This document shows, one piece after another, positions 4,776-63,892 of a stretch of 64,000 nt of DNA. The stretch's first letter is position 1. Each line of letters starts with the position of its first letter. A program made the position numbers and the translations under genes. The notes under the pieces were generated by a model. That model saw only the letters and a list, made by a program, of their open reading frames with translations, had not been told where the DNA came from and searched no databases. The stretch comes from Mucilaginibacter arboris (GTDB lineage: Bacteria > Bacteroidota > Bacteroidia > Sphingobacteriales > Sphingobacteriaceae), in the NCBI RefSeq assembly GCF_009754915.1, contig NZ_WPIK01000003.1:248001-312000 (forward strand), given 5' to 3'.

Positions 4776-6968
4776 ATGACAGAGACAAAACAATCGCTTT
4801 TTGATAATTTACAGAACTTTTTTGGTTTCAATAATTTCAAAGGCGATCAGGAAATAATTATAGAAAACATTTTGGCAGACAAAGATACATTTGTTATTAT
4901 GCCAACAGGCGGCGGCAAATCTATGTGTTACCAGTTGCCCGCTTTAATGAGTGAAGGAACAGCCATCGTAATTTCTCCTTTAATTGCGCTGATGAAAAAC
5001 CAGGTTGACCAGTTGCGTTCCTTCGGCGGATCGGATAGTATTGCGCATTTCCTCAATTCATCCTTAAACAAAACAGAAATTGCAAGGGTAAAAGAAGATG
5101 TAATTACAGGCAAAACCAAACTGCTTTATGTTGCACCGGAATCTTTAACCAAACTGGAAAATATAGAATTTTTGCAACTGGTTAAATTATCATTTGTTGC
5201 GGTTGATGAAGCACATTGTATTTCTGAATGGGGACACGATTTTCGTCCGGAATACCGAAAAATCCGTCAGGTTATTAGCAATATCGGCGAAAATATTCCA
5301 ATTATCGCTTTAACAGCAACCGCTACGCCGAAAGTACAGCAGGATATCCAGAAGAACCTGCAAATGAACAATGCTTTGCTGTATAAATCTTCTTTCAACC
5401 GTACCAATTTATATTATGAAGTCCGCGCTAAGCGAAACGTGATCAAAGAGATTGTGCGTTTTGTAAAGCAGCATCAGGGCAAATCTGGCATTATCTATTG
5501 CCTCAGCCGTAAAAAAGTAGAAGAAGTTGCAGAAGCTTTAAACTTAAACGGTATCAAAGCTTTACCTTATCACGCTGGTTTAGACCCTAAAGTCCGTGCA
5601 GACACACAGGATAAATTCCTGATGGAAGATGTGGATGTAATTGTTGCTACCATTGCCTTCGGGATGGGAATTGATAAACCGGATGTTCGTTACGTAATCC
5701 ATCACGATGTGCCTAAAAGCATGGAAGGTTATTACCAGGAAACCGGACGTGCCGGACGTGATGGCGGCGAAGGCATTTGTTTGTCTTTTTATTCTGAAAA
5801 GGATATTGATAAACTGCAAAAGTTTATGAAAGATAAACCGGTTGCCGAGCGCGAAATTGGTACGCAGATTTTAAAAGAAGTAATTGATTATGCAGAATCT
5901 GCTGTTTGTCGCCGCAAACAAATCCTGCATTATTTTGGCGAGAACTTTGACGCAAAAGACTGCCACAACATGTGCGATAATTGTCGGGCACAAAAAGAAT
6001 TTTTTAGTGTAGAAGGGCCCTTAATTAAAGCTTTAAAATTAGTGCAGCAGTTAGGCGAAAAGTTTGACGATCAACATATCATCAGCGTTTTAATGGGTGT
6101 TGATGATCCGCAGATACATAATTACGAACATCATTTGCTGCCGGAGTTTGGCTTAGGGAAAGAAGATGGCGAGAACCTTTGGAAATCTCTGATGCGCCAG
6201 GCTTTGCTTAATAATTACCTGGCAAAAGATATTGATTATTACGGATTATTACGCTTAACAGATAAGGGTAAAGAATATATTGAAAACCCTTACGAATTAA
6301 AATGGGTTTTAAACCGGCCAATGGGCGCAACAGATGATGATGCAGAAGATGAAGCGCCGCAAGGTTCTGGTGTTTTAGACACGCAACTTTTGCAAATGCT
6401 AAAAGACCTGCGTAAAAAAATCGCGAAGCAAAAAAACCTGCCGCCGTTTGTGATTTTCCAGGATCCTTCCTTAGAAGAAATGTGCACGCATTATCCAATC
6501 ACTTTGGATGAGATGAAACAGATTTCGGGCGTTGGTTCCGGAAAAGCCATGAAATTTGGTACTGCTTTTACCGAGCTGATTAAGAAATATGTAGAGGAAA
6601 ACGACATCGACCGGCCGATTGATCTGGTGATTAAATCTGCTGCCAATAAATCTGCTATTAAAGTTTCCATCATTCAAAATATTGACCGGCAAATCGCTTT
6701 AGAAGATATTGCTTCTTCCAAAGGTTTATCTTATGAAGATATTTTGCGCGAAATAGAATCTATCGTAAACTCTGGTACGAAGTTAAATTTGAGTTATTAT
6801 ATTGATGATTTAATTGATGAAGACCGGCAGGAAGAAGTTTTCGGTTACTTCCGCACAGCCGAAGCTGATTCTATCGAAGATGCTTTAAAAGAATTGGGTT
6901 CTGATGATTATACACATGAAGAATTGCAGTTGATGCGCATTAAATTTATGTCGGAATTAGGAAATTAA
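4776..6968 (+). CDS. recQ: ATP-dependent DNA helicase RecQ
   Basis: A 730-residue 3'-5' DNA helicase of recombinational repair. Domains in order: SF2 helicase core with Walker A PTGGGKSMCYQLP (about residue 43) and the DEAH box followed by CISEWGHDFRPEYR (about 144); helicase motif VI region QETGRAGRDG; zinc-binding cysteines from about residue 378 (CRRKQILHYFG, then CHNMCDNC); a winged-helix RQC region; an HRDC domain about 530-605 (LPPFVIFQDPSLEEM); and a C-terminal extension with a helix-turn-helix-like segment (IALEDIASSKGLSYEDIL), common in Bacteroidota RecQ. All key motifs are intact. It converges on the OmpA-family gene, with motif-pair terminators between. Confidence 0.95.
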   Translation: MTETKQSLFDNLQNFFGFNNFKGDQEIIIENILADKDTFVIMPTGGGKSMCYQLPALMSEGTAIVISPLIALMKNQVDQLRSFGGSDSIAHFLNSSLNKTEIARVKEDVITGKTKLLYVAPESLTKLENIEFLQLVKLSFVAVDEAHCISEWGHDFRPEYRKIRQVISNIGENIPIIALTATATPKVQQDIQKNLQMNNALLYKSSFNRTNLYYEVRAKRNVIKEIVRFVKQHQGKSGIIYCLSRKKVEEVAEALNLNGIKALPYHAGLDPKVRADTQDKFLMEDVDVIVATIAFGMGIDKPDVRYVIHHDVPKSMEGYYQETGRAGRDGGEGICLSFYSEKDIDKLQKFMKDKPVAEREIGTQILKEVIDYAESAVCRRKQILHYFGENFDAKDCHNMCDNCRAQKEFFSVEGPLIKALKLVQQLGEKFDDQHIISVLMGVDDPQIHNYEHHLLPEFGLGKEDGENLWKSLMRQALLNNYLAKDIDYYGLLRLTDKGKEYIENPYELKWVLNRPMGATDDDAEDEAPQGSGVLDTQLLQMLKDLRKKIAKQKNLPPFVIFQDPSLEEMCTHYPITLDEMKQISGVGSGKAMKFGTAFTELIKKYVEENDIDRPIDLVIKSAANKSAIKVSIIQNIDRQIALEDIASSKGLSYEDILREIESIVNSGTKLNLSYYIDDLIDEDRQEEVFGYFRTAEADSIEDALKELGSDDYTHEELQLMRIKFMSELGN

Positions 6969-6972
6969 TATC

Positions 6973-7012
6973 GATAAAAGAAGCATTGCATTTATGCTAA
7001 TGCTTCTTTTAT
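6973..7012. terminator. Inverted pair of the dispersed motif after recQ (probable terminator)
   Basis: Five bases past the recQ stop, GATAAAAGAAGCAT (6973-6986) is followed by ATGCTTCTTTTAT (7000-7012). The two halves can form a 13-bp stem with a 13-nt loop ending in a T-run. The palindrome suits termination in both directions, and is made entirely from two opposite copies of the repeat. Confidence 0.75.
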
Positions 7013-7053
7013 GCCTGTAAAATTCATATCAATTACTAAAATACAGCTTATTG

Positions 7054-7077
7054 TTTTTTAGGTGATAAAAGAAGTAT
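7054..7077 (+). repeat. Dispersed motif, full-length form (T-variant core)
   Basis: A T6-AGGT run (7054-7063) leads directly into GATAAAAGAAGTAT (7064-7077). It lies four bases from the stop codon of the convergent OmpA-family gene, and is one of the fullest copies in the window. Confidence 0.88.
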
Positions 7078-14419: not shown

Positions 14420-15307
14420 ATGAAAAATTTTACAGCAGCGTTTAAAGGGGAACTGGAAAGTATATTACACCAAAAATCAGGTGGTAAAAGCAGCATCCAC
14501 GAAATTATAGAAGTTCCGGGCGGAAGCATTAATGAAGTTTACCGTTTGCAAACGGCTGCCGGTTTTTTCATTTTAAAGCTGAACAATGCCCAGCATTACC
14601 CGCAATTATTTGAACGCGAAGCAGCAGGTTTGGCAGCCATCCGCCAAACCCAAACAGTTGCCGTACCGGAAGTGATTGCAGCCGGGCATTTGGGTTACAA
14701 CAGTTTTTTGCTGATGGAATACGTGGAAACAGGAAGTAAAACGCCTGCTGCCATGCAGAAATTAGGTTTGCAATTAGCGCAAATGCACCAAAATACTGCC
14801 CCTCATTTTGGTTTTGAAAAGGATAATTACATGGGTTCATTGCCGCAATCCAATCAAAAACATACAACCTGGAAATCGTTTTTTATAGAAGAGCGTTTAA
14901 AGCCGATGGTGAAACTGGCTTTTGATGCTTCTTTTATCGACCAAAAATTGGTGTCGGATTTTGAGAAACTGTATGAAAAGCTGGGCGAACTTTTTGAGGA
15001 AGAAAAGCCATCCTTAATCCATGGAGATTTATGGGGAGGAAATTATCTGATCAGCAGTGAAGGGAAACCATATTTAATTGATCCTGCCGTCAGTTTTGGT
15101 TTCCGGGAGTTTGATCTGGCCATGACGCATCTTTTTGGTGGTTTTAACACTGATTTTTATCAGGCATATCAGGAAGCGTTTCCTTTGCAGAAAGGCTGGC
15201 AGCAGCGTGTTGATTTATGGAATTTATATCCGCTGTTGCTGCATTTGAATTTATTTGGAACAGGATATTTAGGGCAGGTGAGGAGTGGGTTGAAGAATTT
15301 TATTTGA
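14420..15307 (+). CDS. Fructosamine kinase family protein
   Basis: A 295-residue protein-kinase-fold phosphotransferase (Fructosamin_kin). Key features: N-terminal lobe FFILKLNN with the ATP-contacting lysine (about residue 52), LLMEYVETG hinge, the catalytic loop LIHGDLWGGNYL (about 198) and the metal-binding YLIDPAVSFGFREFDLAM (about 216). Relatives phosphorylate fructosamines or ribulosamines on glycated proteins, releasing the sugar. No signal peptide. An exact dispersed-motif copy encodes DASFID (14925-14938). Its last eight bases overlap the convergent hicA fragment. Confidence 0.9.
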   Translation: MKNFTAAFKGELESILHQKSGGKSSIHEIIEVPGGSINEVYRLQTAAGFFILKLNNAQHYPQLFEREAAGLAAIRQTQTVAVPEVIAAGHLGYNSFLLMEYVETGSKTPAAMQKLGLQLAQMHQNTAPHFGFEKDNYMGSLPQSNQKHTTWKSFFIEERLKPMVKLAFDASFIDQKLVSDFEKLYEKLGELFEEEKPSLIHGDLWGGNYLISSEGKPYLIDPAVSFGFREFDLAMTHLFGGFNTDFYQAYQEAFPLQKGWQQRVDLWNLYPLLLHLNLFGTGYLGQVRSGLKNFI

Positions 15308-15431
15308 AATCAGTTTCAGTTAATCCAGCTTGTTTTAAAATTGAACGAAATGTTCCGATAAGCATTTCTTTTAGTTCTGCCGGAATGATAACGGTTAAAG
15401 TTGGTTCTCCAAATTTATGCAGCTTGATATA
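15300..15431 (-). pseudogene. hicA toxin fragment (C-terminal half only)
   Basis: Minus-strand codons read KLHKFGEPTLTVIIPAELKE, then IGTFRSILKQAGLTETDF and stop. This matches the second half of HicA mRNA interferases, with the (K/P)GTLRSIL+QAGL signature. The first half, including the RNA-cleaving GxH motif, is missing: the frame hits a TAA just upstream (about 15435). A TlpA-like gene occupies the place where the rest of hicA and the junction with hicB (16692-16913) would be. Confidence 0.72.
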
Positions 15432-15442
15432 TTAAACAAAAT

Positions 15443-16636
15443 TTAAACCGGCTTATGATTTTTTAGTTTTATTTTGTTCGATTCCATAATTCTTTTGATG
15501 CTATCCAAACTTACATCTCTCCCGATAAATTTACCATCGCTATCGATTAAATAATTTGACGGGATACTTTTTATTACAAAGTTTCTGATGTTTTTAGAAT
15601 CTTCCTGTTCCTTTAGTTCACTAATGTTGTACCAAGGTAACTGATCAATAGATGAGGCATGTTTCCACTTTTTGACATCTTCATCAATGGAAACGGATAT
15701 AATTTCCAAGCCTTCTGCTTTGTATTTCTTGTATAACTGTTTAAGTTCTGGCACTTGTTCGCGGCAAGGGCCACAATAGGATGCCCAGAAGTCAATCAAC
15801 GTTATTTTATTCTTCTTGTAATCTATATTTAAAGGATTTCCCTTTACATCTTTTCCATAAATATCAGGAGCTTTAGCTCCTACATATATTTTTTTAACAG
15901 ACCCCAATAGTTCAGCTGCCTCATCATAATATTTTGATTTTTTTACTTCAGGGCTTAATTTATCTAATATACTTTGATATAAAGAGTGATTCTCAAACAA
16001 ATCTGAAAGCTTACTCATTAAATAAGGCGTAACTAGTGTTTTTGGATTGTTTTTTATAAACTGCTGAATACTTGCACGGTAAGAAAGGGAAAGCTTGTCA
16101 TCCATCATGATTATCGTATCATTGTAAGCATTATAAAGCTGACTTTGGTTGCTTGTAAGAGCCTTATCAGCCAGGGTTAAATACAGCTTCTTTTTATAAA
16201 TTAAAGAGTCTCTTATATGGTTATTTAGTATGTTAAATTCGTTCAGCTTTTTTTGATTAAAAGATGTGGTGTGCAAATTGTACCTTTCATAAAATATTGA
16301 TGAAGGACCATTTGCAATAAGCTTGTATCTGGCATTATTTTCAATGTATAAAGCGATAAAACTCATCCATCCTGTAAGATGATTTATTGCCACTGGGTAA
16401 GTACATTTAAAATCTAATGTATAAAATCCATTTTCGGGAACGGTTGAATGAAGTGTAAATTTATTGTCTTTGATAATAGTCGAATCGTAAACTACTGTAA
16501 AATTATTATTTATTACTCTTACCAAAGTTCCATTTGCACTATCCACAACACCAACAATTGTAACTGTTGCGCTTTTTTTACAGGATAATAAAGAAAGGAT
16601 TAATGATAAGATGATTAATACAAGTGGTGTTTTCAT
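15443..16636 (-). CDS. TlpA-like thioredoxin-fold lipoprotein (DUF4369-type N-domain)
   Basis: A 397-residue lipoprotein: the signal LVLIILSLILSLLSC gives the lipidated cysteine at residue 19. Residues about 25-240 resemble the beta-rich then helical DUF4369-type region found in front of Bacteroidota thioredoxin-like proteins. Residues about 250-390 form the thioredoxin/AhpC-TSA domain with active site WASYCGPCREQ (about 286) and cis-proline region SIPSNYLID. It is likely periplasm-facing and reduces disulfides. It lies between hicB and the hicA fragment, out of keeping with normal hicAB order. Confidence 0.87.
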   Translation of the reverse strand: MKTPLVLIILSLILSLLSCKKSATVTIVGVVDSANGTLVRVINNNFTVVYDSTIIKDNKFTLHSTVPENGFYTLDFKCTYPVAINHLTGWMSFIALYIENNARYKLIANGPSSIFYERYNLHTTSFNQKKLNEFNILNNHIRDSLIYKKKLYLTLADKALTSNQSQLYNAYNDTIIMMDDKLSLSYRASIQQFIKNNPKTLVTPYLMSKLSDLFENHSLYQSILDKLSPEVKKSKYYDEAAELLGSVKKIYVGAKAPDIYGKDVKGNPLNIDYKKNKITLIDFWASYCGPCREQVPELKQLYKKYKAEGLEIISVSIDEDVKKWKHASSIDQLPWYNISELKEQEDSKNIRNFVIKSIPSNYLIDSDGKFIGRDVSLDSIKRIMESNKIKLKNHKPV

Positions 16637-16691
16637 GATAAAGAATCAATTATAATTTAATTTGCAAAAATCACTGGAGCGAATGCAATAC

Positions 16692-16913
16692 TCATGCTTG
16701 TTTTGATTCTGAAATGTCTAACGATTCCGTAGATTCAACCGGTGTTAAATCAATGACTTCTTCATCCTCAAAATACAACTCCAACGCTTCCTGTAAATTG
16801 GCCAAAGCTTCTTCTTTCGATTCACCAAAGCTGGAAACTTCCACATTTAAACATTTGGCAACATAATATTTATCTTCTTTCCAGACTATATTTTCTAACC
16901 CAACTGTCTTCAT
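16692..16913 (-). CDS. hicB: HicB-family antitoxin-like protein
   Basis: A 73-residue protein with the compact HicB partial-RNase-H-like fold: ENIVWKEDKYYVAKCLNVEV, then SFGESKEEALANLQEALELYFED. The C-terminal tail is acidic and has no clear DNA-binding helix, as in short HicB-like antitoxins. The toxin partner would be expected directly downstream, but only a fragment survives beyond the TlpA-like gene. It may be an orphan antitoxin now. It is divergent from the PIF1-like helicase gene. Confidence 0.82.
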   Translation of the reverse strand: MKTVGLENIVWKEDKYYVAKCLNVEVSSFGESKEEALANLQEALELYFEDEEVIDLTPVESTESLDISESKQA

Positions 16914-17030
16914 TGTTTTTTATTTGAAAATAGGAATTATTATCTGCAATGAAAGCACATTTCAAATGATATTTCTTTGAACGATAAAAAATTATGTTTT
17001 AAATGAATGCTAAATTCTTATCATTGCTTT

Positions 17031-19511
17031 ATGCAGCAAAACCCGCAACTTGAACTCGCCAATAACTTTGTACAGCATACCAACCGTAACATTTTTTTAA
17101 CCGGGAAAGCCGGAACGGGTAAAACTACGTTCCTACATCAGTTGAAGAAAACATCGCACAAACGGATGGCAGTGGTTGCGCCAACAGGTGTAGCGGCTAT
17201 AAATGCGGGCGGCGTTACCATTCATTCGCTGTTCCAGCTGCCGTTTGGTCCGTATATCCCTCAGCAGGAAAATACAGACAGAAATAGTCAGTATAAAAAG
17301 CAGTTTAACCGGGAAAAAATCAACCTGATTCGCAGTTTGGATTTATTGGTTATTGATGAGATCAGTATGGTGCGCGCCGATGTTTTGGATGCTATCGATG
17401 ATGTTTTGCGCCGTTACCGCAACCGTTCCAAACCTTTTGGCGGCGTGCAGTTGCTGATGATTGGCGATCTGCACCAGCTTTCGCCCATTGCAAATAAGGA
17501 AGAATTGCAATTGCTTAAACCTTATTACGATACCTTGTATTTTTTTGCGAGTAAAGCCTTGCAGCAAACACCATTAGTCAACATCGAACTAAAACATATT
17601 TACCGGCAGGCCGATACTGCTTTTATCGGTCTTTTAAATGCAGTTCGCGAAAACCGGATCAGCAAGCAGATTTTAGAAGATTTAAACCGGCGTTTTGTCC
17701 CTCATTTTAAAACAAATGAAGCTGAAGGTTACATCACTTTAACCACGCACAACAACAGCGCGCAGCGTTTGAACGATCAAAAGTTAGCGGAAATAAAGGA
17801 AACCACATATCATTTTAAAGCGGTGGTTCAGGGTGATTTTCCGGAATATGCCTATCCAACTGTTGCTGATCTGGAATTGAAAGTTGGCGCACAGGTAATG
17901 TTTGTGAAGAACGACAGTTCGCGCGATAAGCTTTTTTATAACGGTAAAATCGGTAAAGTTGTGCGTATTGCGGATGAAGTGATTTATATAAAATGTGCAG
18001 GCGAACAAGATGAAATTGGCGTTGGACCGATGGTTTGGCAAAACATCAAATACGCTTTAAATACAGCAACAAAAGAAGTTCAGGAAAACGTGATCGGCAG
18101 TTTTACGCAGCATCCGCTCCGGCTGGCTTGGGCAATAACCATTCATAAAAGCCAGGGTTTAACGTTTGAAAAAGCCATTATTGATGCGGAAGACGCCTTT
18201 ACGCACGGACAGGTTTACGTGGCTTTAAGCCGGTGCAAAACATTGGAGGGCATGGTTTTAAGTTCGCCGCTAAAAAGTAAAAGTGTTATTACCGACAGTA
18301 CGATTGCTGCTTATACAAGTGAGAGCGAACGCAATGAACCCAATGAAAATATCCTGAACGAAGCCAAAAAAACTTTCCAGGAAACTTTGCTTCGCGAATT
18401 ATTTGATTTCAACCTGATGAAATTCAAATATTTTTCGCTTCTGAAATCAGCAGAAGAAAACGATCAGGCTTTAGTAGGAAACTTTGCACAAACTTTACAT
18501 GAAATTAAAGCCGCTGCCGAAAAAGAAATTTATGCAGTAGCGCAAAAATTTCAAACGGAATTAAACCAGTTATTACAGCAGCCTGAGCTGCCGGAAAACC
18601 ATGAAGCGTTGCAGGAACGTGTAAAAAAAGCAAGTACTTATTTTGCTTCCAAATTAGAGCAAATGCTGTTTTTACCACTAAAAAAAATGGCGGTAGAAAC
18701 GGATAATAAAGCTATCCGGAAAAGTGTTCAGGGCGCATTGACTGGTTTAAAACAGGAAGTAACCGTTAAACTTTACATAATCAAGCAAGCAGCAATAAAT
18801 GGTTTTAATGCACTGGCTTATCTGCAAAATAAAGCAAACGCAGCTATTGATTTAAGTACGGCTGAGGATAAAACCAGTGCTTCATCACAAAACCAAACAG
18901 CAGCAGCGGTTGTAAATGTAGATCATCCTGAATTATTTACCACACTTCGTAACTGGCGGAACCAGGTGGCGGATGAAAAGAATATACCGCCTTTCCATAT
19001 TTTTTCGCAAAAAGTATTAACCGAAATGGTTACGCTTCTGCCATCTACCTTAGCAGAACTGGAAAGCATAAAAGGGATGGGGCCAGTTAAAGTAAAGCAA
19101 TACGGCGAGGAGATTTTAAAGCTGATTAACGCTTATAGTGAAGAGAAGCAAATACAAAGGCAGCGCATTGATTTGAATGTTCCGAAGGAAAACGTAACAT
19201 CAGAAACCAAACAAGTTTCTTTCGGTTTATTTCGGGCAGGAAAAACTATTGCTGAAATTGCTGCAGAACGCAACCTGACAGCAGGTACAATTGAAGGACA
19301 TTTATTACATTTTGTTGCTTTAGGAGAACTGGAAATTTCACAGGTTTTTTCGCAGGATGTGGTAGCGCAGATCAGCAATTACCTCAGCAAAAACCAGCCG
19401 GAAAGTTTAACGGAAGCGAAAAATGCGCTGGGCGATGCAGTTTCTTACAACGCGCTACGCGCTGTACTTAAACACTTAAACTATCAGTACCCGCAGCGGG
19501 CAGACGGGTAA
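17031..19511 (+). CDS. PIF1-like helicase with HRDC and HTH C-terminal domains
   Basis: An SF1 helicase of about 826 residues. Motifs: Walker A TGKAGTGKTTFLH (about residue 25), VVAPTGVAAINAGG, VIDEISMVRADVLD (Walker B), QLLMIGDLHQLSPI (motif III), LRLAWAITIHKSQGLTFEKAIID and QVYVALSRCKTLEG (UvrD_C_2-type end of the core). After a coiled, Ala/Glu-rich linker (about 445-640) there is an HRDC domain (IPPFHIFSQKVLTEM) and a C-terminal helix-turn-helix segment (FRAGKTIAEIAAERNLTAGTI). The open frame starts at 17007; the Met at 17031 (MQQNPQLELANNF) is the more likely start because homology begins there. It probably acts in repair or replication. Confidence 0.9.
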   Translation: MQQNPQLELANNFVQHTNRNIFLTGKAGTGKTTFLHQLKKTSHKRMAVVAPTGVAAINAGGVTIHSLFQLPFGPYIPQQENTDRNSQYKKQFNREKINLIRSLDLLVIDEISMVRADVLDAIDDVLRRYRNRSKPFGGVQLLMIGDLHQLSPIANKEELQLLKPYYDTLYFFASKALQQTPLVNIELKHIYRQADTAFIGLLNAVRENRISKQILEDLNRRFVPHFKTNEAEGYITLTTHNNSAQRLNDQKLAEIKETTYHFKAVVQGDFPEYAYPTVADLELKVGAQVMFVKNDSSRDKLFYNGKIGKVVRIADEVIYIKCAGEQDEIGVGPMVWQNIKYALNTATKEVQENVIGSFTQHPLRLAWAITIHKSQGLTFEKAIIDAEDAFTHGQVYVALSRCKTLEGMVLSSPLKSKSVITDSTIAAYTSESERNEPNENILNEAKKTFQETLLRELFDFNLMKFKYFSLLKSAEENDQALVGNFAQTLHEIKAAAEKEIYAVAQKFQTELNQLLQQPELPENHEALQERVKKASTYFASKLEQMLFLPLKKMAVETDNKAIRKSVQGALTGLKQEVTVKLYIIKQAAINGFNALAYLQNKANAAIDLSTAEDKTSASSQNQTAAAVVNVDHPELFTTLRNWRNQVADEKNIPPFHIFSQKVLTEMVTLLPSTLAELESIKGMGPVKVKQYGEEILKLINAYSEEKQIQRQRIDLNVPKENVTSETKQVSFGLFRAGKTIAEIAAERNLTAGTIEGHLLHFVALGELEISQVFSQDVVAQISNYLSKNQPESLTEAKNALGDAVSYNALRAVLKHLNYQYPQRADG

Positions 19512-19517
19512 AAAAGG

Positions 19518-20810
19518 TTAATTCTCGCCCGGCATCAAATAATCCAGCTCGGTTAAATCTTTTACACAACCAAAACCAATTACATCGGCAACCACTTTGC
19601 CATCGGTCACTTCAACGGCACGTTTTAATTTATCGGCCCCAAATTTTTGCTGAATGGCATACATCGTTTTTCGCGCGGTTTCGCCCCGGTTTACATCTTC
19701 AAAAAGGCTGTACATCATTTTTCCTGTGTTTACAAAATCGGTTACCATGATCCGCAAACCGCTTATTTTATCGTTAAAAACAGGTGCAGCCTGGGTTTTT
19801 TCTTCAAACTGCATAATTCTTTTTTTGATCATCCGCATCAAACTGATTGCATCCTGGATTGGAATGCTGATCGAAAAGCCATCGTCCCAGCGGCTGTCAT
19901 CGGTATATTTCACCGTAAAACCAATATTCTTACAATAAAAATGGTGATGCACCATGCGTTTTTCCAAGGTAGTGCAAAGTGTTAAAAACAATTGCTCAAT
20001 GTATTCAGGATTGCTTCTTTTATCGGCAGAAATTTGTCGCATGGCCTGCATGCCTTTGTAATCTGTTACCGACATGCCGGTTTCGATAAAGTTGAGTTTA
20101 TAATGCCAGTAAACGCCTTCAATACTTTTAAAAACTGCTTTCAACCTTTCTGGTGCGGTGTAGCGCATTTGCAGCGGCGTTGTAATTCCGGCACGTTCTA
20201 AACGGTAAGCCATATTTTTGCCGATGCCGGGCAGGTCGGAGAGTTTAAGCGAGGCCAGTTTATCATCGATATTTTGGGTGGTGATGATTTGCAAACCATC
20301 AAAACCGCCCATATCAGAACCTAATTTAGCCAGAAAAGCGTTCGGCGCAATGCCAATAGAACAGGTTAGCCAGTCGCCAACTTCCCGTTTAATATCTTCC
20401 TTAATTTTTTTGGCGATAAAAACAGCATCAGGGTAAACCATTTTGTAATTGGTGAGGTTAACGATGGCTTCATCAATACTTTTCGGAATTACTTCCGGAC
20501 AATATCGTTTTAAGATATTGATAATTTTGGTATGATACTGCCGGTAACGCGGCGGATTGCTTTCCAGCGGGATCAGTTCCGGACAAAGTTTCATCGCTTC
20601 ATTTAAACGCATTCCCGTTTTTACGCCCATTCTTTTCGCTTCTACAGAAAGGGCAATGGCAAAACCGTATTGGCCGGTATAAACGCAAACGGCAACTGGC
20701 CTGCCGCGTAGCCAGTAATTGTCCTGCTGTTCACATCGCGCAAAAAAGCTGTTCATATCTACAAACAATACGCGCGGTTCGGTTTGTACTTTGATGGAGT
20801 TCTGGTTCAC
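19518..20810 (-). CDS. Y-family DNA polymerase (DinB/UmuC-like)
   Basis: A 430-residue translesion polymerase. Palm-domain signatures: VLFVDMNSFFARCEQ with the metal-binding Asp (about residue 17), then RPVAVCV, and the second acidic motif KSIDEAIVNL (about 110). A helix-hairpin-helix region LSDLPGIGKNMAYRLERAGI (about 195) and a little-finger domain follow. The C-terminus has no beta-clamp motif I can name with confidence. It copies past lesions and costs fidelity. It converges with the PIF1-like helicase with only six bases between stops. A dispersed-motif variant lies at 20012-20024. Confidence 0.9.
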   Translation of the reverse strand: MNQNSIKVQTEPRVLFVDMNSFFARCEQQDNYWLRGRPVAVCVYTGQYGFAIALSVEAKRMGVKTGMRLNEAMKLCPELIPLESNPPRYRQYHTKIINILKRYCPEVIPKSIDEAIVNLTNYKMVYPDAVFIAKKIKEDIKREVGDWLTCSIGIAPNAFLAKLGSDMGGFDGLQIITTQNIDDKLASLKLSDLPGIGKNMAYRLERAGITTPLQMRYTAPERLKAVFKSIEGVYWHYKLNFIETGMSVTDYKGMQAMRQISADKRSNPEYIEQLFLTLCTTLEKRMVHHHFYCKNIGFTVKYTDDSRWDDGFSISIPIQDAISLMRMIKKRIMQFEEKTQAAPVFNDKISGLRIMVTDFVNTGKMMYSLFEDVNRGETARKTMYAIQQKFGADKLKRAVEVTDGKVVADVIGFGCVKDLTELDYLMPGEN

Positions 20811-21208
20811 AATAACAAAAATACTAATAATTTTAGTAAAAATAATTAATGTGGAAAAATTTATAGTAAAAGAAGTACTGGCGCCATGCTTCTTTTATCA
20901 AGGAAGTTGTTTAAACTTTTTTTCTGGCCGATGCTTCTTTTATCACCTAAAAAATCACTAAAGACCTATAAGGTTTTCAAAATTTTTTTCCATTTATTTT
21001 ATTGGCGATGCTTCTTTTATCACCTAAAAATCAGAATATCCATTTGCTTTTTGTACAGGCAGTAAGTGATGAACAAAGATTTTATAGTGATAAAAGAAGC
21101 ATCAGGATTTTTTCCCGGGACCAATTTAAACAGGAAATATTAACGGTTTCTTTTAAGGCAGGTTGAAACCTCGCTGCCGCAACTTTGTTCTGGATAAAAA
21201 CGGTATTT
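20811..21208. other. Gene-free interval carrying five dispersed-motif copies
   Basis: No convincing reading frame occupies this roughly 400-bp stretch between the polymerase start and the NUDIX gene. It holds the densest set of motif copies in the window: GTAAAAGAAGTAC (20866-20878), and opposite-strand copies at 20886-20899, 20931-20944 and 21008-21021 (the last two extended by ACCTAAAAA), and GATAAAAGAAGCATC (21089-21103). The first two form an inverted pair with a short loop; the third or fourth can pair with the last. Both flanking promoters must lie within or beside these copies. Confidence 0.85.
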
Positions 21209-21802
21209 ATGTCATCTGTCAAAATCATCAAACGCGAAAATCTTGCTCCTCAAAGCAAATACAGGTTAGAAAATATTACGTACGAAACGTCTGGAAGAGA
21301 CGGAAAGCCACAGGAAAACCAATGCGAAATTTATCACCGTCCATCTGGCGCAGTTTTGTTATTGTTTGATCCGACAAGGAAAAAGTTATTGCTAACCAAG
21401 CAATTACGTATTCCAACTTATTTTAACGGAAATGAGTCTGGCGATTTGATCGAAGTTTGTGCAGGAATTACAGATGAAGGCGAAACGGTGGAAGAAGGCG
21501 CTATCCGCGAAGCAAAAGAGGAATTGGGCTACGAGTTGAAAGGAATAACAAAAGTGGCAGAAGTATATCTTTCGCCCGGTGGCGATGTTGAATTAGCACA
21601 TTTTTTTATTGCAGAATATCATCCGGATATGAAAGTTGGAAAAGGCGGCGGTTTGGAAGAAGAAGGCGAAGATGTAACAGCGATAGAAATGGACTATGCC
21701 GAAGCCCGGCAAAAGTTACAGCAAGGCGAATTTCGTGACGCTAAAACCCTGATTTTATTACAACATTTTTTTATGAATAATCCTGATTTTGCCGGATATT
21801 GA
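21209..21802 (+). CDS. NUDIX hydrolase (NudK/ADP-sugar pyrophosphatase-like)
   Basis: A 197-residue enzyme with an intact Nudix box, GITDEGETVEEGAIREAKEELGY (GX5EX7REUXEEXGU), at about residues 87-109. Flanking motifs GDLIEVCAG and YLSPGGDVELAHFF match the NudK/NudF branch that cleaves GDP-mannose or ADP-ribose type substrates; the exact substrate is not determined, though manC (GDP-mannose synthesis) is in the same window. The open frame begins at 21185, but MSSVKIIKREN at 21209 fits the family start and length (NudK is about 191 residues). Confidence 0.88.
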   Translation: MSSVKIIKRENLAPQSKYRLENITYETSGRDGKPQENQCEIYHRPSGAVLLLFDPTRKKLLLTKQLRIPTYFNGNESGDLIEVCAGITDEGETVEEGAIREAKEELGYELKGITKVAEVYLSPGGDVELAHFFIAEYHPDMKVGKGGGLEEEGEDVTAIEMDYAEARQKLQQGEFRDAKTLILLQHFFMNNPDFAGY

Positions 21803-26948: not shown

Positions 26949-27004
26949 GATAAAAGAAGCAGGGCCAACGCCTGTTTTAGCCGGAAACCAATACTGTTTT
27001 TATC
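26949..27004. repeat. Dispersed motif: one standard copy and one CAG-variant, inverted
   Basis: GATAAAAGAAGCAG (26949-26962) has one mismatch at its last base. ATACTGTTTTTATC (26991-27004) is the opposite-strand form of the GATAAAAACAGTAT subfamily also seen at 35892 and 56304. Confidence 0.7.
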
Positions 27005-47918: not shown

Positions 47919-47960
47919 GATAAAAGAAGCATGGCTATCAACACTCATACTTCTTTTATC
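47919..47960. terminator. Inverted motif pair after the giant surface-protein gene
   Basis: GATAAAAGAAGCAT (47919-47932) and ATACTTCTTTTATC (47947-47960) form a stem of up to 14 bp with a 14-nt loop, 43 bp from the stop of the giant minus-strand gene. An AACTCAAAACTTACAACTC-type repeat follows (47961-47995). The rest of 47725-48002 contains no gene. Confidence 0.75.
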
Positions 47961-48002: not shown

Positions 48003-51000
48003 TTACTTGATCAAATGGATCACGCCCGTCCGGCTTGGTGCACTGTTTTTATAGCTCATGCCCATCCATTCATTGCCATTTAAGTAAGTTGCTTCTATTT
48101 CCCAAACGTAAACACCTTGTGGTGCCGGCTGTCCGTTCATCATGCCATCCCAGCCTTCGGCAGGTTCTCCGCGTGCGGTTAGTTTGGTGGTTTCCCAGAT
48201 TACTTGTCCCCACTTATTAAATACCCGCATGTGCCAGCGTTTAATGCCCGAGCCTTTGGCTTTAAACGTAACGATCTCGTTAAATTTACTGGTTGGCATA
48301 AAGGCATTCGGTACAAAAAGCTGTCCCGGAACGCCGGTTATTTGTACGGTATGCGTAATAGAATCGGCACAGCCCTGCAAATTGTAAACAATCAATTGAA
48401 CTTTGTAAATACCCGTATCGCGGTAAGTATGTTCCGGATTTTGTTTGCTTGCACTGATGCCATCGCCAAAATTCCATTTCCATAAAATAGGGTTGTTCGT
48501 GCTTTTATCAGCAAAAGAAAAACTATAATACGGATACGCTATTACACTGTCTGGTTTTGCTGCAAAGGCTGCTTTTGGTGGAAAATAGACATTGATGTAG
48601 TTTTTCATCGTCAGGGTATCGGTACAGCCCAAACCATTTTTGGCAATTAAAGTAATGGTAAAAGGAGTATTCCGGGCAGTAAAAGTATGCGTTGGGTTAG
48701 GGGATACAGCTGTGCCGCCATCACCAAAATCCCACATATAAGTGTTATCTCCAGTAGTTTGGTTTTTAAAGTTAACGGTAAGTTGTTTACAGCCGCTTTG
48801 CACATCCGCAGTAAAGCTTGTTTTTGGCTGCGGATAAACGGTGATAGACTGATAAGTAGAAGTATCGGAACAACCGTTGGTAGCAGACAATTTTACGTTA
48901 AAAACCCCGTCTTTCAGGAAAGTATGGCTTACTACTTCCGGTGCGCTTTGCGTATTTACAATTGTGCCATCACCAAAATCATAAGTAAAATAGGTGCCGC
49001 CTTTGGTATTGTTGTAAAACTGGACTGTCCATGGTGCACAACCTGCTTTCTGGTCTCCGTTTACAACCAATTGCGGGAAAACAGAGTTTGGCGAAATGCG
49101 GATATTATATTGGGTTACACTTGTACCGCATTCATTTGTTGCAGTCATTTTAACTACATAGGTTTTGCTTACTGCAGAAGTATAAATGTGGGCAACGCCC
49201 TGGTTATCGTGGGTAACCAGGGTTTGGCCATCACCAAAATCAAAAGTATAAGTGTTGTTGGTTCCCGGAGAAGTATTGTTAAAGTTTACGGTGAAAGGAG
49301 AGCAGCCAACTGTTTTATCAGGCGTAAAAATAGAGATAGGTTTCGGCCTAACGGTTACACCGGAAGTAAACGTACGGATGCCGCAAGCTGTTAAAGCTTT
49401 CAGCGTAACGGTATAAGTAGTGTCTTTGCCATCAGTACGCGGCAGGAAAGTAACCGGCAGCGGATTTACTTGGGTCGAAGTGCTTCCGTTGCCAAAGTTC
49501 CAGGTATAAGTAGCGGCATTTTGCGGGTTGGAAGTATTGGTGAAAGTTACTGTTAATGGCCCGCATCCTTTGGTTTGATCTTGGGTGAAGCCCGCGGTTA
49601 CTTCTTTTATCGTAGTAAAAGTATGGGTAAAAGAAGCATCAGGGCAACCATATTTGCTTGAAACTACTAATTTAATCACTACCTGTTTATTATCTTCTGT
49701 AATGGTATAACCTGGAAAAGTAAAACCACTTCCAAAGAAAACACCATCTGCATACCAGGTATAAGTATTGTTGCCTGCCGCTGCAGTTGCGTTGATGTTT
49801 TGCGCATCTAATTTAAAAGGGATGCAGCCTAAATCATTTTTGTAAGTATAAGTTGCGTTGGGCAAAGGGTTAACTGTTACGGTGATAATATTACTAACGC
49901 TTTGCTGCGGGCCGTTACATAAAACCGAAGTAACAATTCTGCGGAACTGCGTAGTAACAGTTAAGCTGTTTACCTGGTAATTCGCTGTATTTGCCCCGGA
50001 AATATTTGTCCAGGTGGCACCATTATCAGTACTGCTTTGCCAGTTATAGGTGTAGTTGCCATCGGCACCGGCAGGCGCGCTTCCATTAAGCAGTTTCGGT
50101 GTATTGTTATAGCACACTTCCTGATCGCTTGCTACCGTGTTATTGGTAATTGGAGGTTGTACGATGATATAAACCGGCTGACTGATTTTAGTACAAGGGC
50201 CGGAAGTTACAATTCTTCTGATATACAAGTTTTGCGTTCCGGTGAAGGAATAATCTTTACCCGTTTGATTAGCAATAGTGGTCCAGGTAATTTGATCGGT
50301 ACTGCTTTCCCAGCTATAAACAAAGCTTCCGGTTCCACCAGTTGGCTGATCACCTAAAGCGGTAACCGTTTGTCCGTAACAAACAGCGGTGCTGTTAAAG
50401 CTGATGGTATTGGTTAAATCGCGTAAATCAGAAATTGTTACATCATCCGCAGAAGTAGAACAAGCACCTGTACTGGTAATGGTCCAGCGGAAAGTGTAAC
50501 TCTGGCCCGGCTGTAATCCGTTTACAGTTGTGTTATATTGGGTATCATCTGCAAAACCAACGCCGGTTTGTCCGGAAGTTAAAGTCCATTTTCCGGCAGA
50601 AGGGGCAGGATTGTTCCCCTTTAAAACATAGTTGCTGGCACTACAAATCTGTTCGTCTGCACCAGCGTTTGCTTGCACCGGTTGCGGCAATACGGTAACG
50701 CTTGCATCTACCGTTGGCCCTTCGCAGCCGCCCGGACTAATTGGGGTGATGTGATAAACAATCGTTGCCGCAGTAGTTAAATCAGAAATCAGGATATCAT
50801 CAATCCGTGTGGCAATTACCGGTTGTTGATTAACTGCATTTCCATAGATACCTTGTACATTAGCCGAAGTCCATTTCAGCAAAACACCCGGCGTGTTGGT
50901 AGTAAAAGTGATACCGGTAGGGCTTCCGCTGCAAATCTGGTTTCCTGAATTGGTAAGGGTTACCCTTGGAATTGGCGTAACGGTAACGGTTAGGGTGAAA

Positions 51001-54000
51001 GGCGTGCCCGGACAGTTGTTGTTAATTGGCGTAATGGTATAAGTAACCGTTCCATTGTTGTTCGGATCAGCATTAACCAGTACATCGTTAATATCGCCTG
51101 TTCCGCTTGCACTATTTCCGGTAACAGAAGCAGATGCAGAAGAAACCCAGGTAAAAGAAGTATTATTTTGTTGCGCCGTTGGATGATAACTCAGCGCAGT
51201 TCCGGTACAGATAATTTTGGTTGATGCACTGGTTATGGTGTTGGTATTTGGCGGATTAACCGTTATCGTTACTGCATTGCTGATATTATGCTGAGAACCA
51301 CTGCATAGCGCAGTGCTAACTACCCTCCGATACTGGGTAGTTGCAGTAAGTGCGCCCGGCTGATAAGTGATCGTGTTGCTGTTGCTGATGCCAAGCCAGG
51401 TTGTGCCGCCATCTGTACTGTTTTGCCATTGATAGGTAAAGTTGCCGTCTCCTCCGGTTGGTGTACTTCCGGTTAATAATGCAGGAACATCATTATAACA
51501 AATGCGCTGATCGGCAGTAATGGTGTTATTGGCAATTGGAGGTTGTACAATTACATAAACCGGCTGAGAAACTTTAACGCAAGGGCCGGAACTTACAATT
51601 CTTCTGATGTAAATATTCGCCGTTCCTGTAAAAGACAAATTCCTGCCGTTCTGGCTGGCAATACTTGTCCAGTTAATGCCGTCGCTGCTGCTTTCCCAGC
51701 TATAAACATAGCTGTTGGTCCCGCCTGTTGGCTGATCGCCATTTATGGTAATAGTCTGTCCGTAACAAACAGCCGGACTAACAAAACTGATGTTATTTGT
51801 TAAGTCTAATAAATCAGTAATTATAACATCATCAAGACTTGAAGCGCATTGCGAAGCGCCGGTAATGGTCCAGCGGAAAGTATATTGCTGGCCTGGTTGT
51901 AGTCCGTTTACCGTTGTATTATATTGAGTATAATCAGCAAAACTTATACCTGTTTGTCCGGAAATGATCGTCCAGTTGCCGGAAGAAATCCCCGGATTGT
52001 TCCCTTTTAAAGTATAACTGCTTGTACTGCAAATTTGCTCATCAGGCCCGGCATTAGCTTGTAAAGGTAAAGGCTGAACTGTGATGATTACGGTTACTGG
52101 TACACCTTCGCATCCTGATGCACTTACTGGTATAATCTGGTAAGTTACAGTACCGCTGGCAGTAGAGGAGGAGTTGTTTAAAACATCATCAATCCGGCTG
52201 GCATAAACAGCGGCTTGATTATTATTACCGGAAATGCCTGCCGAAGCAGTACTTGTCCATTTAAACTTTGTACCGCTTAAGTTAGCCGTAAATGTGATAC
52301 CGGTAGGCTGTCCGCTACAAATGGTGTTACTGGTTTGGTTAACGGTAATTACCGGCAGTGGTGTAACGGTAACGGTTAAGGTAAAAGTCCTGCCCGGGCA
52401 GCCACTGTTAAACGGGGTAATTGTATAAGTAACCGTGCCGTTATTGTTTGCATCGGTATTGGTAAGTACATCATTAATGTCACCTGTTCCGCTTGCTGTA
52501 TTTCCGCTAACCGTACCTGATGCAGAAGAAACCCAGGTAAAAGAAGTATTGGCAGCCTGCGCAGTTATATGATAACTAAATGTTGCCCCGGTACAAATAG
52601 TTGCACTGGAAGCACTGGTTACGGTATTTGTATTTTGCGGACTAACCGTTACCGTTACTACGTTACTAACATTTTGCTGTGCACCGCTACAAAGCGCTGT
52701 AGTTACTATCCTGCGAAACTGTGTAGTAGTAATTAAGGATACAGGCTGATAATTGATACTTGTAGCGCCACTAATCGTATTCCAGTTTGCACCGTTATCA
52801 ATACTTTGCTGCCATTGGTAACTATAGCTGCCATCACCTCCGGCAGGTGTACTTCCGTTTAATACAGAGGGAGTATTGTTATAGCATATTTGTTGATTGG
52901 CTGTAACTGTATTGTTGGAAATGGGAGGCTGTACCTGAATATAAATAACGTTACTGGTTTTAACACAAGGGCCGGAAGTTACTATCCGCCTGAAATAAAT
53001 AGAACTGGTTAAAAGCATAGAAAGGTTAGCGCCAGATTGTCCGCTTACACTGGCCCAGTTAAGCCCGTCGCTGCTGCTTTCCCAGCTGTAAACGTAGCTA
53101 TTGGTCCCGCCGGTTGGCAAATCTCCGCTTACTGTAACGGTTTGTCCTGAGCAGACAGCCGGACTGGCAAAGCTGATGGTATTGGTTAGATCTGACAGGT
53201 CATTAACAATTACATCATCAGAAGTTACAGCACACTGTGCAGCGCCGGTAATCGTCCAGCGGAAAGTATAGGACTGGCCGCCCTGTAACCCGCTAACTGT
53301 AGTATTATATTGAGTGGCATCTGCAAAAACCACTCCTGTTTGGCTGGAAACCAAACTCCATCTGCCAGAAGAAATTCCCGGATTATTTCCTTGTAAAACA
53401 TAAGTCGGAGCAGAACAAATTTGCCCGTCCGGCCCTGCATTGGCCTGTACCGGCAAAGGCTGTACGGTTATGGTAACGGTAACGGGCGTTCCTTCACAGC
53501 CCGAAGGGCCAATAGGCGTAATGGTATAAGTTGCAGTGCCCGCAGCAGTAGTGGAAGTATTGGACAGAACATCATCAACGCGGCTGGCAACTACAGGAGA
53601 TTGACTATTATTTCCATAAATACCACTTGAAGCAGAAGTTGTCCATTTAAAAGTCGTCCCGCTCAAGTTAGAAGTAAAAGTGATACCGGCAGGTTGTCCG
53701 CTGCAAATGGTATTAGCAGTTGAATTTACTGTGATGATCGGCCGTGGCGTTACCGTAACTGTTAATGTAAAAGAAGTACCCGGACAGCCATTGCTGCTTG
53801 GAGTAATAGTATAAGTAACTGTTCCGTTGTTTAAAGGATCGGAATTGGTAAGTACATCATTGATGTCGCCCGAACCAGTTGCCGTATTTCCGGTAACAGT
53901 GGCAGAGGCAGAAGAAGTCCAGGTAAACGTACTTGCGGTAACTTGTGCCGTTGGGTGATAACCTACCGTATTTCCGGTACAAATGCTTTGACTTGAAGAA

Positions 54001-56564: not shown

Positions 56565-58040
56565 ATGGGCCGTATAAACTGTATATCAAATGTTTTTTTA
56601 GGTGCTAAAAGAAGCATGTTGTTTTTGCTGTGTACTTCTTTTATCGGCCAAAAATTGATGGCACAAACCGCAGGCACCAAAATGGATTGGGTCAGCAAAG
56701 TTGGCGCGCATTCATCTCCCATAAAAAAAACAGAATTTAAAGTAAATGCTTACGGTGTTGTAAATGATAGCACGGCTTTAAATACAAAAGCCATCCAAAA
56801 AGCTATTGATGCCTGTGCAGCAAAAGGCGGCGGAATAGTAACTTTTGCTCCCGGAAAATATTTGACCGGCTCTGTTTTTTTAAAAAAAGGTGTTCAGCTA
56901 CGTTTGGATAAAGGCGTAGAAATTAAAGGCAGTCAGGATATTAAAGATTACCCGGAAATTGATACGCGCATTGCCGGTATCGAAATGAAATGGCCTGCTG
57001 CATTAATTAATGTTCTCGACCAACAGCAGGTTGCCGTAACCGGGGAAGGATTGGTTAACGCCCAGGGAAAAGTTTTCTGGGATTACTACTGGAATTTAAG
57101 GAAGGAATACGATCCGAAAGGCCTGCGCTGGATTGTAGATTATGATGCCAAAAGGCCCCGCACTTTGCTGGTTTCCAACTCTTCGGATGTAACTATAAAA
57201 GGAATTACTTTACAACAGGCCGGTTTCTGGACGGTGCAGCTTTTGTACTCCAAAAACGTAACGGTTGATGGCATTACGATCCGGAACAATATTGGCGGCC
57301 ATGGCCCTTCAACTGATGGAATTGACGTGGATTCTTCTTCCTGGGTTTTAATCCAGAATTGTGATATTGATTGTAACGATGATGATTTCTGTTTGAAAGC
57401 TGGCCGCGATTGGGATGGTTTGCGGGTAAACCGGCCAACGGAATATGTAGTGATCCGCGATTGTGTTGCCCGAAAAGGTGCCGGATTATTAACACTTGGA
57501 AGTGAAACTTCAGGCAGCATCAGGCATGTTTTGGCAACTAATTTAGTTGGAAACGGAACCAGCAACGGCTTAAATATCAAATCGGCAACAACGCGCGGTG
57601 GTACAATTGAAGATATTCACTTTGAAAACATCACCATGAACGGCGTTGGAACAGCGATGCAAATTACCATGAACTGGAACCCGAGCTACAGCTATTCTAA
57701 ATTGCCGGAAGGTTATACGGAAGAAACTTTGCCGCCGCATTGGAAAAAAATGCTGACCAAAGTAGAACCGGCATCCAAAGGAATACCTCATTTTAAAGAC
57801 GTTTTTTTAGAAAACGTTAAAGTTACCGATGCCAAAAAAGCAATCAATGCAATTGGTTTGCAGGAATCGGAACTGATCAATTTCAACCTGAAAAATGTTA
57901 CGATAGAAGCAGCAACTGCAGGCGATATTGAATTAGCGCAAGGCTGGAAGTTCGATCAGGTATCCATTAAAACAAAAGACAACTCGCAGCTTGGGGTTAA
58001 AAGTTCTTCCAACATGAAAATTGCAATGTCAGAAAAGTAA
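56565..58040 (+). CDS. GH28-family pectinase (polygalacturonase-like)
   Basis: A 491-residue secreted right-handed beta-helix hydrolase. GH28 signatures: GPSTDGIDVDSSSWVLIQNCDID, NDDDFCLKAGRDWDG (catalytic Asp residues), and SETSGSIRHVLATNLVG. It starts by hydrolysing galacturonan or rhamnogalacturonan backbones. The frame begins MGRINCISNVFLGAKRS and then MLFLLCTSFIGQKLMAQ, the hydrophobic signal; starting at 56616 is possible, but the upstream KR supplies the positive n-region so 56565 is kept. The N-terminal codons are built from an inverted motif pair (56593-56617 and 56633-56645). Confidence 0.9.
   Translation: MGRINCISNVFLGAKRSMLFLLCTSFIGQKLMAQTAGTKMDWVSKVGAHSSPIKKTEFKVNAYGVVNDSTALNTKAIQKAIDACAAKGGGIVTFAPGKYLTGSVFLKKGVQLRLDKGVEIKGSQDIKDYPEIDTRIAGIEMKWPAALINVLDQQQVAVTGEGLVNAQGKVFWDYYWNLRKEYDPKGLRWIVDYDAKRPRTLLVSNSSDVTIKGITLQQAGFWTVQLLYSKNVTVDGITIRNNIGGHGPSTDGIDVDSSSWVLIQNCDIDCNDDDFCLKAGRDWDGLRVNRPTEYVVIRDCVARKGAGLLTLGSETSGSIRHVLATNLVGNGTSNGLNIKSATTRGGTIEDIHFENITMNGVGTAMQITMNWNPSYSYSKLPEGYTEETLPPHWKKMLTKVEPASKGIPHFKDVFLENVKVTDAKKAINAIGLQESELINFNLKNVTIEAATAGDIELAQGWKFDQVSIKTKDNSQLGVKSSSNMKIAMSEK
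56593..56645. repeat. Inverted dispersed-motif pair inside the GH28 signal sequence
   Basis: T7-AGGT then GCTAAAAGAAGCAT (56593-56617), followed by TACTTCTTTTATC (56633-56645) and GGCCAAAAA. It encodes FLGAKRSM...CTSFIG. The layout matches the one at 63842-63892. Confidence 0.85.
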
Positions 58041-63841: not shown

Positions 63842-63892
63842 TTTTTTAGGTGGTAAAAGAAGCATGCTTCCTGCTGTCATGCTTCTTTTATC
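63842..63892. terminator. Inverted dispersed-motif pair after the lyase operon
   Basis: T6-AGGTG then GTAAAAGAAGCAT (63842-63865) and ATGCTTCTTTTATC (63879-63892) give a stem of about 13 bp with a 13-nt loop, 26 bp after the second lyase stop. A 29-codon frame from 63822 runs through it but looks incidental. Confidence 0.72.

Follow-up and report, generated by a model that had tools for sequence, protein, structure and literature searches.

Strong preference for DNA carrying a short motif during uptake is described for two bacterial families, Pasteurellaceae and Neisseriaceae (PMC7811141). In Haemophilus influenzae 86-028NP, close pairs of the Pasteurellaceae sequence (USS) in opposite orientation form two sharp classes of spacing, 69 pairs at 0-3 bp and 40 at 10-14 bp; such pairs are usually found where genes end and work as terminators (PMC7811141). 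Inverted copies of the Neisseriaceae sequence (DUS) serve as terminators in Neisseria (PMC2397512), so the remark in the preliminary description of this DNA that Neisseria and Haemophilus pairs double as terminators is in line with both papers (PMC2397512, PMC7811141). A minor pilin of the type IV kind acts as receptor for DUS (PMC4906244). DUS are under-represented in mobile islands, and this helps to find conjugative elements (PMC7371117). Competence of another kind, with no pili detected, occurs in Riemerella anatipestifer, where it requires ComEC, DprA, a ComF-family protein and RecA, together with a helix-hairpin-helix protein, a DUF1343 protein and two outer-surface proteins (PMC8459023). 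Riemerella tonB mutants show lower transformation (PMC8383284). No uptake sequence is mentioned in the available parts of these two Riemerella papers (PMC8459023, PMC8383284). A search of mostly open-access literature, preprints excluded, found no report combining an uptake sequence with Bacteroidetes, Bacteroidota or Mucilaginibacter, and a search for the string AAAAGAAGCAT returned unrelated titles only.

The window, by which we mean the whole stretch of 64,000 nucleotides of Mucilaginibacter arboris that was analysed, holds 63 matches to ATAAAAGAAGCAT with up to two mismatches (5.24 expected) and 64 to AAAAGAAG (6.21 expected). Genome-wide there are 993 copies of ATAAAAGAAGCAT and a single copy of the reversed control. 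The full element, derived from 832 AAAAGAAG copies in 857 kb plus 495 TAAAAGAAGCA copies, has the consensus A/T tract, short spacer, then YGRTAAAA(GA or AC)AGCAT. Counting from the T of TAAAA, the tract occupies -12 to -7 and is followed by a few loose positions, after which come Y, G, R and TAAAAGAAG(C/T)AT. The tract has a C+G frequency of 0.00-0.01 at -10 to -8 beside TAAAAGAAGCA and amounts to a phased A/T flank of the USS type; the whole bipartite site spans approximately 26 bp. A second core, TAAAAACAGCA (the AC type, 114 copies), carries the same flanks as the GA type. Counted with the pattern TAAAA(GA or AC)AG(C/T)A, the two cores add up to 802 sites over 857 kb, close to one per kb, with an even, near-exponential spacing of mean gap 1.07 kb. 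There are three motif-free gaps longer than 7 kb (1.15 expected) and eight longer than 5 kb (7.45 expected). Several of the longest (for example 107.3-118.1 kb of contig C23, L034) contain neighbouring genes that, judged by size, resemble SusC/SusD, and the motif may be scarce in loci of this kind. These first statistics cover 857 kb of the 4.16 Mb genome that contains the window (G000); 372 kb of the same genome (making 1.23 Mb) and 395 kb of two sister genomes (G001 and G002) were added later, giving 1.62 Mb. All three assemblies may be drafts, and genes were called as greedy open reading frames of at least 80 codons.

The motif is confined to one genus. Among 399 family genomes counted, the exact 13-mer has 993, 940 and 545 copies in the three genomes of the genus and at most six, near the chance level, in each of the other 396. 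The AC core follows suit, with 382, 337 and 359 copies in the genus against no more than 20 in 118 other genomes, and of 80 recQ loci only L049 and L050, those of the sister genomes, have many copies of TAAAAGAAG (12 and 6; 0-3 in the remaining 78). Nor do relatives display a comparable 9-mer of their own in the 32-40 kb surveyed from each of 18 genomes in 14 genera, where the top z is at most 5.9; the same survey inside the genus gives top z of 12.8-17.8, the stretches having been picked where earlier matches showed a long contig and not at random. The motif is also scarce on a 78-kb conjugative contig of G000 (C8), a single case, which has five sites when 114 other complete 10-kb windows have 2-18 each. 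This contig (L201-L204) yields a TraM-family match and more conjugation-type reading frames are recognised by eye. The five sites all fall at 35.0-38.4 kb, in frames that, again by eye, look like hsdM, hsdS and the beginning of hsdR from a type I restriction system; this apparent restriction-modification locus at 34.8-40.5 kb looks as if derived from the chromosome of the genus itself. The facing-pair pattern discussed below has no exact match among IMG/VR viral contigs.

Comparison between sister genomes covers approximately 149 kb of alignment and 104 sites in aligned blocks; it starts from G000 sites and so leans towards presence. The motif is kept at 85 of these sites (56 of 65 coding, 29 of 39 intergenic). 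In the 19 others there are 14 with one to three substitutions only, four with partial gaps and one deletion: the motif changes mostly by substitution, not insertion. It is conserved beyond coding need, since third-codon positions are identical at 286 of 309 (0.93) inside the motif and at 0.61 elsewhere. AAAAGAAG itself is kept at 50 of 77 coding and 31 of 44 intergenic positions; the corresponding fractions are 0.21 in both classes for 8-mers in general, and 0.35 (coding) and 0.18 (intergenic) when its letters are reordered. The GA and AC cores are interchanged at nine orthologous sites. AAAACAGC, a word also found outside the motif, is kept less often (16 of 45 coding, 1 of 7 intergenic), so strong constraint on AAAACAGC alone is not favoured.

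Within the genome the element prefers intergenic DNA. Of the GA-type sites, 374 of 605 are intergenic and 231 coding, yet 84-91% of each sampled piece is coding; the coding sites lie 136 on the strand of the gene and 95 on the opposite strand. Density falls from 6.07 sites per kb in convergent gaps to 4.11 in tandem and 3.26 in divergent ones, the last holding 92 sites between two 5' ends. Since density is highest between convergent and lowest between divergent genes the motif is not promoter-centred, and sites for a promoter-centred regulator were rejected on this ground. There is no strand bias with GC skew taken in 10-kb windows on draft contigs (419 sites follow the G-rich strand and 376 oppose it, p=0.14), nor by contig.

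Restriction to one genus, change by substitution, a third-codon identity of 0.93, neutrality as to strand and scarcity on the conjugative contig together make up the profile of an uptake sequence. We give about an even chance to the explanation that the motif is an uptake-type signal accumulated by preferential import, and that the facing pairs found after genes would be two-way terminators. Competent cells of the genus would preferentially bind or take up motif-bearing DNA, and the motif would accumulate as a consequence; facing pairs would then be retained where a terminator is useful. The label 'uptake sequence' is inferred from the behaviour of the motif.

The import route would be of a Bacteroidota type, working without type IV pili and ending in ComEC and DprA. 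Both proteins are over the profile cut-off in G000, G001 and G002, although ComEC is not specific to the genus because it is also present in all 11 other family genomes searched. NamZ_N/DUF1343 is present in the genus as well. The T2SSE/pilus ATPase family PF00437 has no match over cut-off in the three genomes, with weak sub-cut-off matches in G000 and G002, and so the receptor type of the known uptake sequences is not seen, as judged from this one family. DUF5689, the family of a Riemerella uptake gene, likewise has no match in the three genomes. In one relative (G020, L155/L168) a DUF5689 gene and comEC share a contig and lie approximately 7 kb apart, which recalls the Riemerella uptake gene cluster. 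A candidate for a further DNA-import part is encoded beside comEC. In L160 comEC lies at 14823-16943 on the minus strand and a gene for a 682-residue protein occupies 16947-18995 on the same strand; it has homologues in 13 of the 14 family genomes searched, each within approximately 3 kb of the comEC match. The protein matches no Pfam family at E<=0.01, and by eye shows a helix-hairpin-helix-like start with an outer-membrane-barrel-like remainder, features that would suit such a role.

The main rival to the uptake reading holds that a genus-specific chromosome-organising or nucleoid protein binds the motif, hairpins being a by-product or a secondary use. We judge this rather unlikely. Chromosome-organising systems are known with tens to hundreds of sites, not with thousands. 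A mark of resident DNA would nevertheless fit the even spacing, the two-part site and the scarcity on the conjugative contig, and also the preferred spacings of sites placed back to back. These favour gaps of 5-6 (10 pairs), 18-21 (11 pairs) and 64-73 (27 pairs). Of the 17 pairs at gaps 5-7, 13 combine a GA with an AC core, four are AC/AC and none is GA/GA; at gaps 18-22, 17 of 18 are GA/GA. On our reading the T-run of one core falls, at the short spacing, on the tract position of its partner, a place which the AC core with its five Ts fills better, and near gap 20 the two sites share one tract. Tandem neighbours within 40 nucleotides are nearly excluded (4 against 26.8 or 22.4 expected under two null models), as anticipated if each element needs its own tract. 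In the window a back-to-back pair of gap 18 lies within the giant gene described below, at 49598-49639.

The preliminary description had noted four inverted pairs in the window as terminator hairpins, and all four are present where it placed them. The first, at 6973-7012 (arms 6974-6986 and 7000-7012), lies between recQ on the plus strand and a convergent OmpA/PD40 gene on the minus strand; a further single copy on the plus strand, ATAAAAGAAGTAT, at 7065-7077, precedes the convergent gene. The second, at 20866-20899 (arms 20866-20878 and 20886-20898), has a left arm that departs from the consensus and is flanked by a pol IV-type gene (19518-20810, minus strand) and a NUDIX gene (21185-21802, plus strand), with a single motif copy on the minus strand in the same gap at 20931-20943. 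The third, at 47919-47960 (arms 47920-47932 and 47947-47959), is 3' of a giant gene for a PKD/CHU_C protein (2,726 residues, 48003-56183, minus strand). The fourth, at 63842-63892 (arms 63853-63865 and 63879-63891), is 3' of the RGL11 (PL11) lyase gene, with the motif T tract upstream. The spacers are 13, 7, 14 and 13 bases respectively, within the 7-14 bases first described. Placement at gene ends holds for the recQ, giant-gene and PL11 pairs; the polymerase-NUDIX pair is not at a gene end because it lies between the starts of its two neighbours. The T-run said to end each stem is present, but inside the 3' arm (CTTCTTTTAT) and not after it, where the letters are GCC, CAA or CAG with an A-run rather than a T-run in three of the four pairs.

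Minimum free energy folding, proposed in the preliminary description as a check, places three of the pairs far beyond chance and leaves the fourth weak. As RNA, plus and minus strands in turn, the recQ pair gives -19.1 and -18.6 kcal/mol (z -5.7 and -6.4), the giant-gene pair -19.5 and -25.7 kcal/mol (z -7.3 and -7.8), the PL11 pair -21.7 and -17.8 kcal/mol (z -4.6 and -4.2) and the polymerase-NUDIX pair -11.9 and -7.4 kcal/mol (z -2.6 and -1.3). It is likely that the recQ pair is a two-way terminator and that the giant-gene and PL11 pairs are terminators. In the mechanism we propose, GAAGCAT-loop-ATGCTTC would close as the stem, UUUUA of the 3' arm would serve as the U-tract and AAAA of the 5' arm would supply the U-tract on the other strand, making facing pairs after genes two-way intrinsic terminators. 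A fifth facing pair, at 56605-56644 in the start of a GH28 reading frame, folds no better than chance on the plus strand (z -1.0) and is unlikely to be a terminator. There an in-frame ATG within the motif (GCATG), which could be the real start codon, is followed by what appears by eye to be a signal-peptide-like stretch. Further facing pairs are a wider one at 1574-1630 (gap 33 by 11-base cores) and one at 26950-27002 that combines a GA-type with an AC-type core (gap 30).

Close pairs are commoner than random placement would give, about twofold at gaps of 0-20 when inverted pairs are counted across 857 kb. There are 19 intergenic facing pairs (GCAT inside) at these gaps. Re-placing sites within their own intergenic regions gives 7.9 +/- 2.7, with none of 300 simulations reaching 19, and keeping element footprints apart gives 9.6 +/- 2.8, with two of 300 doing so. 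The excess is concentrated at gaps 11-20 (11 pairs against 3.4 or 4.1 under the two nulls); gaps 0-10 are not significant (8 against 4.5 or 5.6) and gaps 21-40 show no enrichment in the 857 kb (5 against 5.6 or 6.6).

The arms of close facing pairs match each other beyond the shared consensus. In 30 such pairs of gap 0-30 from 1.23 Mb of G000 the flanks at -1 to -7 match at 119 positions against 81.7 +/- 6.4 when partners are shuffled, a value reached in none of 5000 shuffles; inner positions match at 38 against 25.2 (28 of 5000) and 28 of the 30 pairs carry the same core variant. Leaving out five pairs of gap below 4, the outer flanks retain the effect (90 against 68.6, 3 of 5000 shuffles) and the inner positions lose significance (38 against 30.4, 353 of 5000). 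A control of 180 distant facing pairs shows 459 outer matches against 446.1 (1087 of 5000), with the same variant in 104. Pooling with the sister genomes (1.62 Mb) gives 36 pairs and 138 matches against 96.8 +/- 7.4, some of these pairs being counted more than once as orthologues. Arm matching could also come from inverted duplication.

Closeness to stop codons tells less. Among 23 intergenic facing pairs of gap up to 30, 11 are within 20 nucleotides of a stop codon and 16 within 60, with 37% and 52% the corresponding figures for 293 single sites and 13% and 27% for 5302 random intergenic positions. As single copies are likewise concentrated after stop codons, position alone is no proof of termination; the extra shift of pairs beyond singles is modest, and arm matching is the stronger evidence. 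The pairs may result from the gene-end bias of single copies plus chance, the excess being only about twofold. In a strict scan for a hairpin plus T-tail, 7 of 20 gene ends with a pair pass, and in all seven the hairpin is formed by that pair; gene ends with single sites pass in 36 of 179 cases, those lacking sites in 32 of 223 and shuffled sequences in 3 of 200.

Of the four window pairs, those after recQ and the giant gene were compared with sister genomes, and each persists in one with an altered loop. The recQ pair is kept in L049, where the hairpin occurs twice in tandem (5190-5420) with a motif pair in each; in L050 one site only is found. After recQ in L050 (about 5210-5370) a minisatellite of TAGTATTTA-like units stands in place of the second arm. 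G002 retains the giant-gene pair, at a position taken from the alignment, and its loop is shorter there; another pair, at 89218 of contig C1, is degenerate in G002. Outside the genus an ordinary hairpin with a T-run is visible by eye after recQ in six of seven loci printed (L051, L052, L054, L057, L060 and L071; not L053).

The terminator claim thus draws support from short-gap enrichment, proximity to stop codons, arm matching and the ordinary hairpins after recQ in relatives, and is tempered by the singles that also follow stop codons, the strict scan (7 of 20) and the one pair away from a gene end. We consider that facing pairs after genes probably act as terminators because short gaps are enriched about twofold, the arms match beyond the consensus and two pairs persist with altered loops. 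It is improbable that terminating transcription or marking 3' ends is the primary role of the element, its single copies being half-terminators or remnants. Pairs and singles do cluster after stop codons and density does peak between convergent genes at 6.07 per kb, but the 1428 sites of the 1.62 Mb include just 36 facing pairs of gap 0-30, a hairpin does not require the upstream A/T tract, 231 of 605 GA-type sites are coding and 92 sites occupy divergent 5'-5' gaps.

The back-to-back pairs of gap 64-73 form a dispersed repeat class. The 27 examples in 857 kb hold 54 of the 802 sites and define a double element of approximately 150 bp, with TTTAAAC-type inverted ends in many copies (for example L012, C1 74609-74759 of G000); a rough pattern for whole double elements finds five. 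The window has a member at 21008-21102 (gap 71), which folds with z -5.8. For two copies both flanks lie in a sister contig: at C1 74635 the site is uninterrupted in G002, and the other case is not clean. Given that uninterrupted site, the double element looks like a MITE carrying two uptake-like signals. That a mobile element of REP/MITE type spread the motif as a whole, pairs being its ends, is a largely refuted and very improbable extension of this dispersal, given that 748 of 802 sites lie outside the class, that 231 of 605 GA-type sites sit in coding sequence and that the 104 aligned sites comprise 85 kept, 14 with substitutions only, four partial gaps and one deletion. Insertion elements were on the same evidence rejected as the source of ordinary sites, which change by substitution with one deletion in 104. 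Least credible of all is a polar recombination or segregation signal like Chi or KOPS, which would suit the high copy number and lineage restriction and was rejected for want of strand polarity (419 against 376, p=0.14, and none by contig), the strong intergenic preference (374 of 605 GA-type sites) and a site of approximately 26 bp, longer than Chi and KOPS signals, also standing against it.

Returning to preferential import, a broader proposal would be that genome-wide uptake signals were invented independently for a third time, in a Bacteroidota genus without type IV pili, that the pairs became two-way terminators secondarily and that a small two-signal mobile element possibly hitch-hikes on transformation; for this whole chain we place the chance a little under even. 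If true, it would supply a clean case of an uptake signal in another phylum, in one genus and with no pilus ATPase detected. One could then study the origin of uptake specificity where pilins are lacking and learn whether biased import generally makes such motifs accumulate, and it would offer a way towards the outer-membrane DNA receptor that competent Bacteroidota use. If the motif is not for uptake, a two-part element at about one per kb that is read by some protein is still unexplained biology.

How then does the element compare with known systems? As a hairpin it resembles an intrinsic (rho-independent) terminator in its stem-loop, U-rich 3' side and position shortly after stop codons, and differs in that the U-run is within the arm, the spacers are often long and the stem is only moderately G+C-rich. 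Like pilus-independent R. anatipestifer the genus has ComEC, DprA and DUF1343 homologues; unlike it, the genus is without DUF5689. With DUS of the Neisseriaceae it shares lineage-specific variants, inverted repeats and scarcity in mobile DNA, here on one contig. An A/T tract is not known to be part of DUS, however, and a search with the single family PF00437 detected no type IV pilus apparatus over cut-off here. The resemblance to USS of H. influenzae and the Pasteurellaceae extends to a core with an A/T-rich flank, a density near one copy per kb, evolution through point mutation and close opposite pairs at preferred spacings located at gene ends, which are terminators in the case of USS and probably here too. 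The differences are an A/T tract on one side, another phylum and the lack of PF00437 over cut-off in the genus; the USS core letters are unrelated to the motif. Since the pilus apparatus was not detected with the one family tested, we describe the motif as working like an uptake sequence and not as a proven member of USS or DUS: its profile is that of an uptake sequence and we call it uptake-sequence-like.
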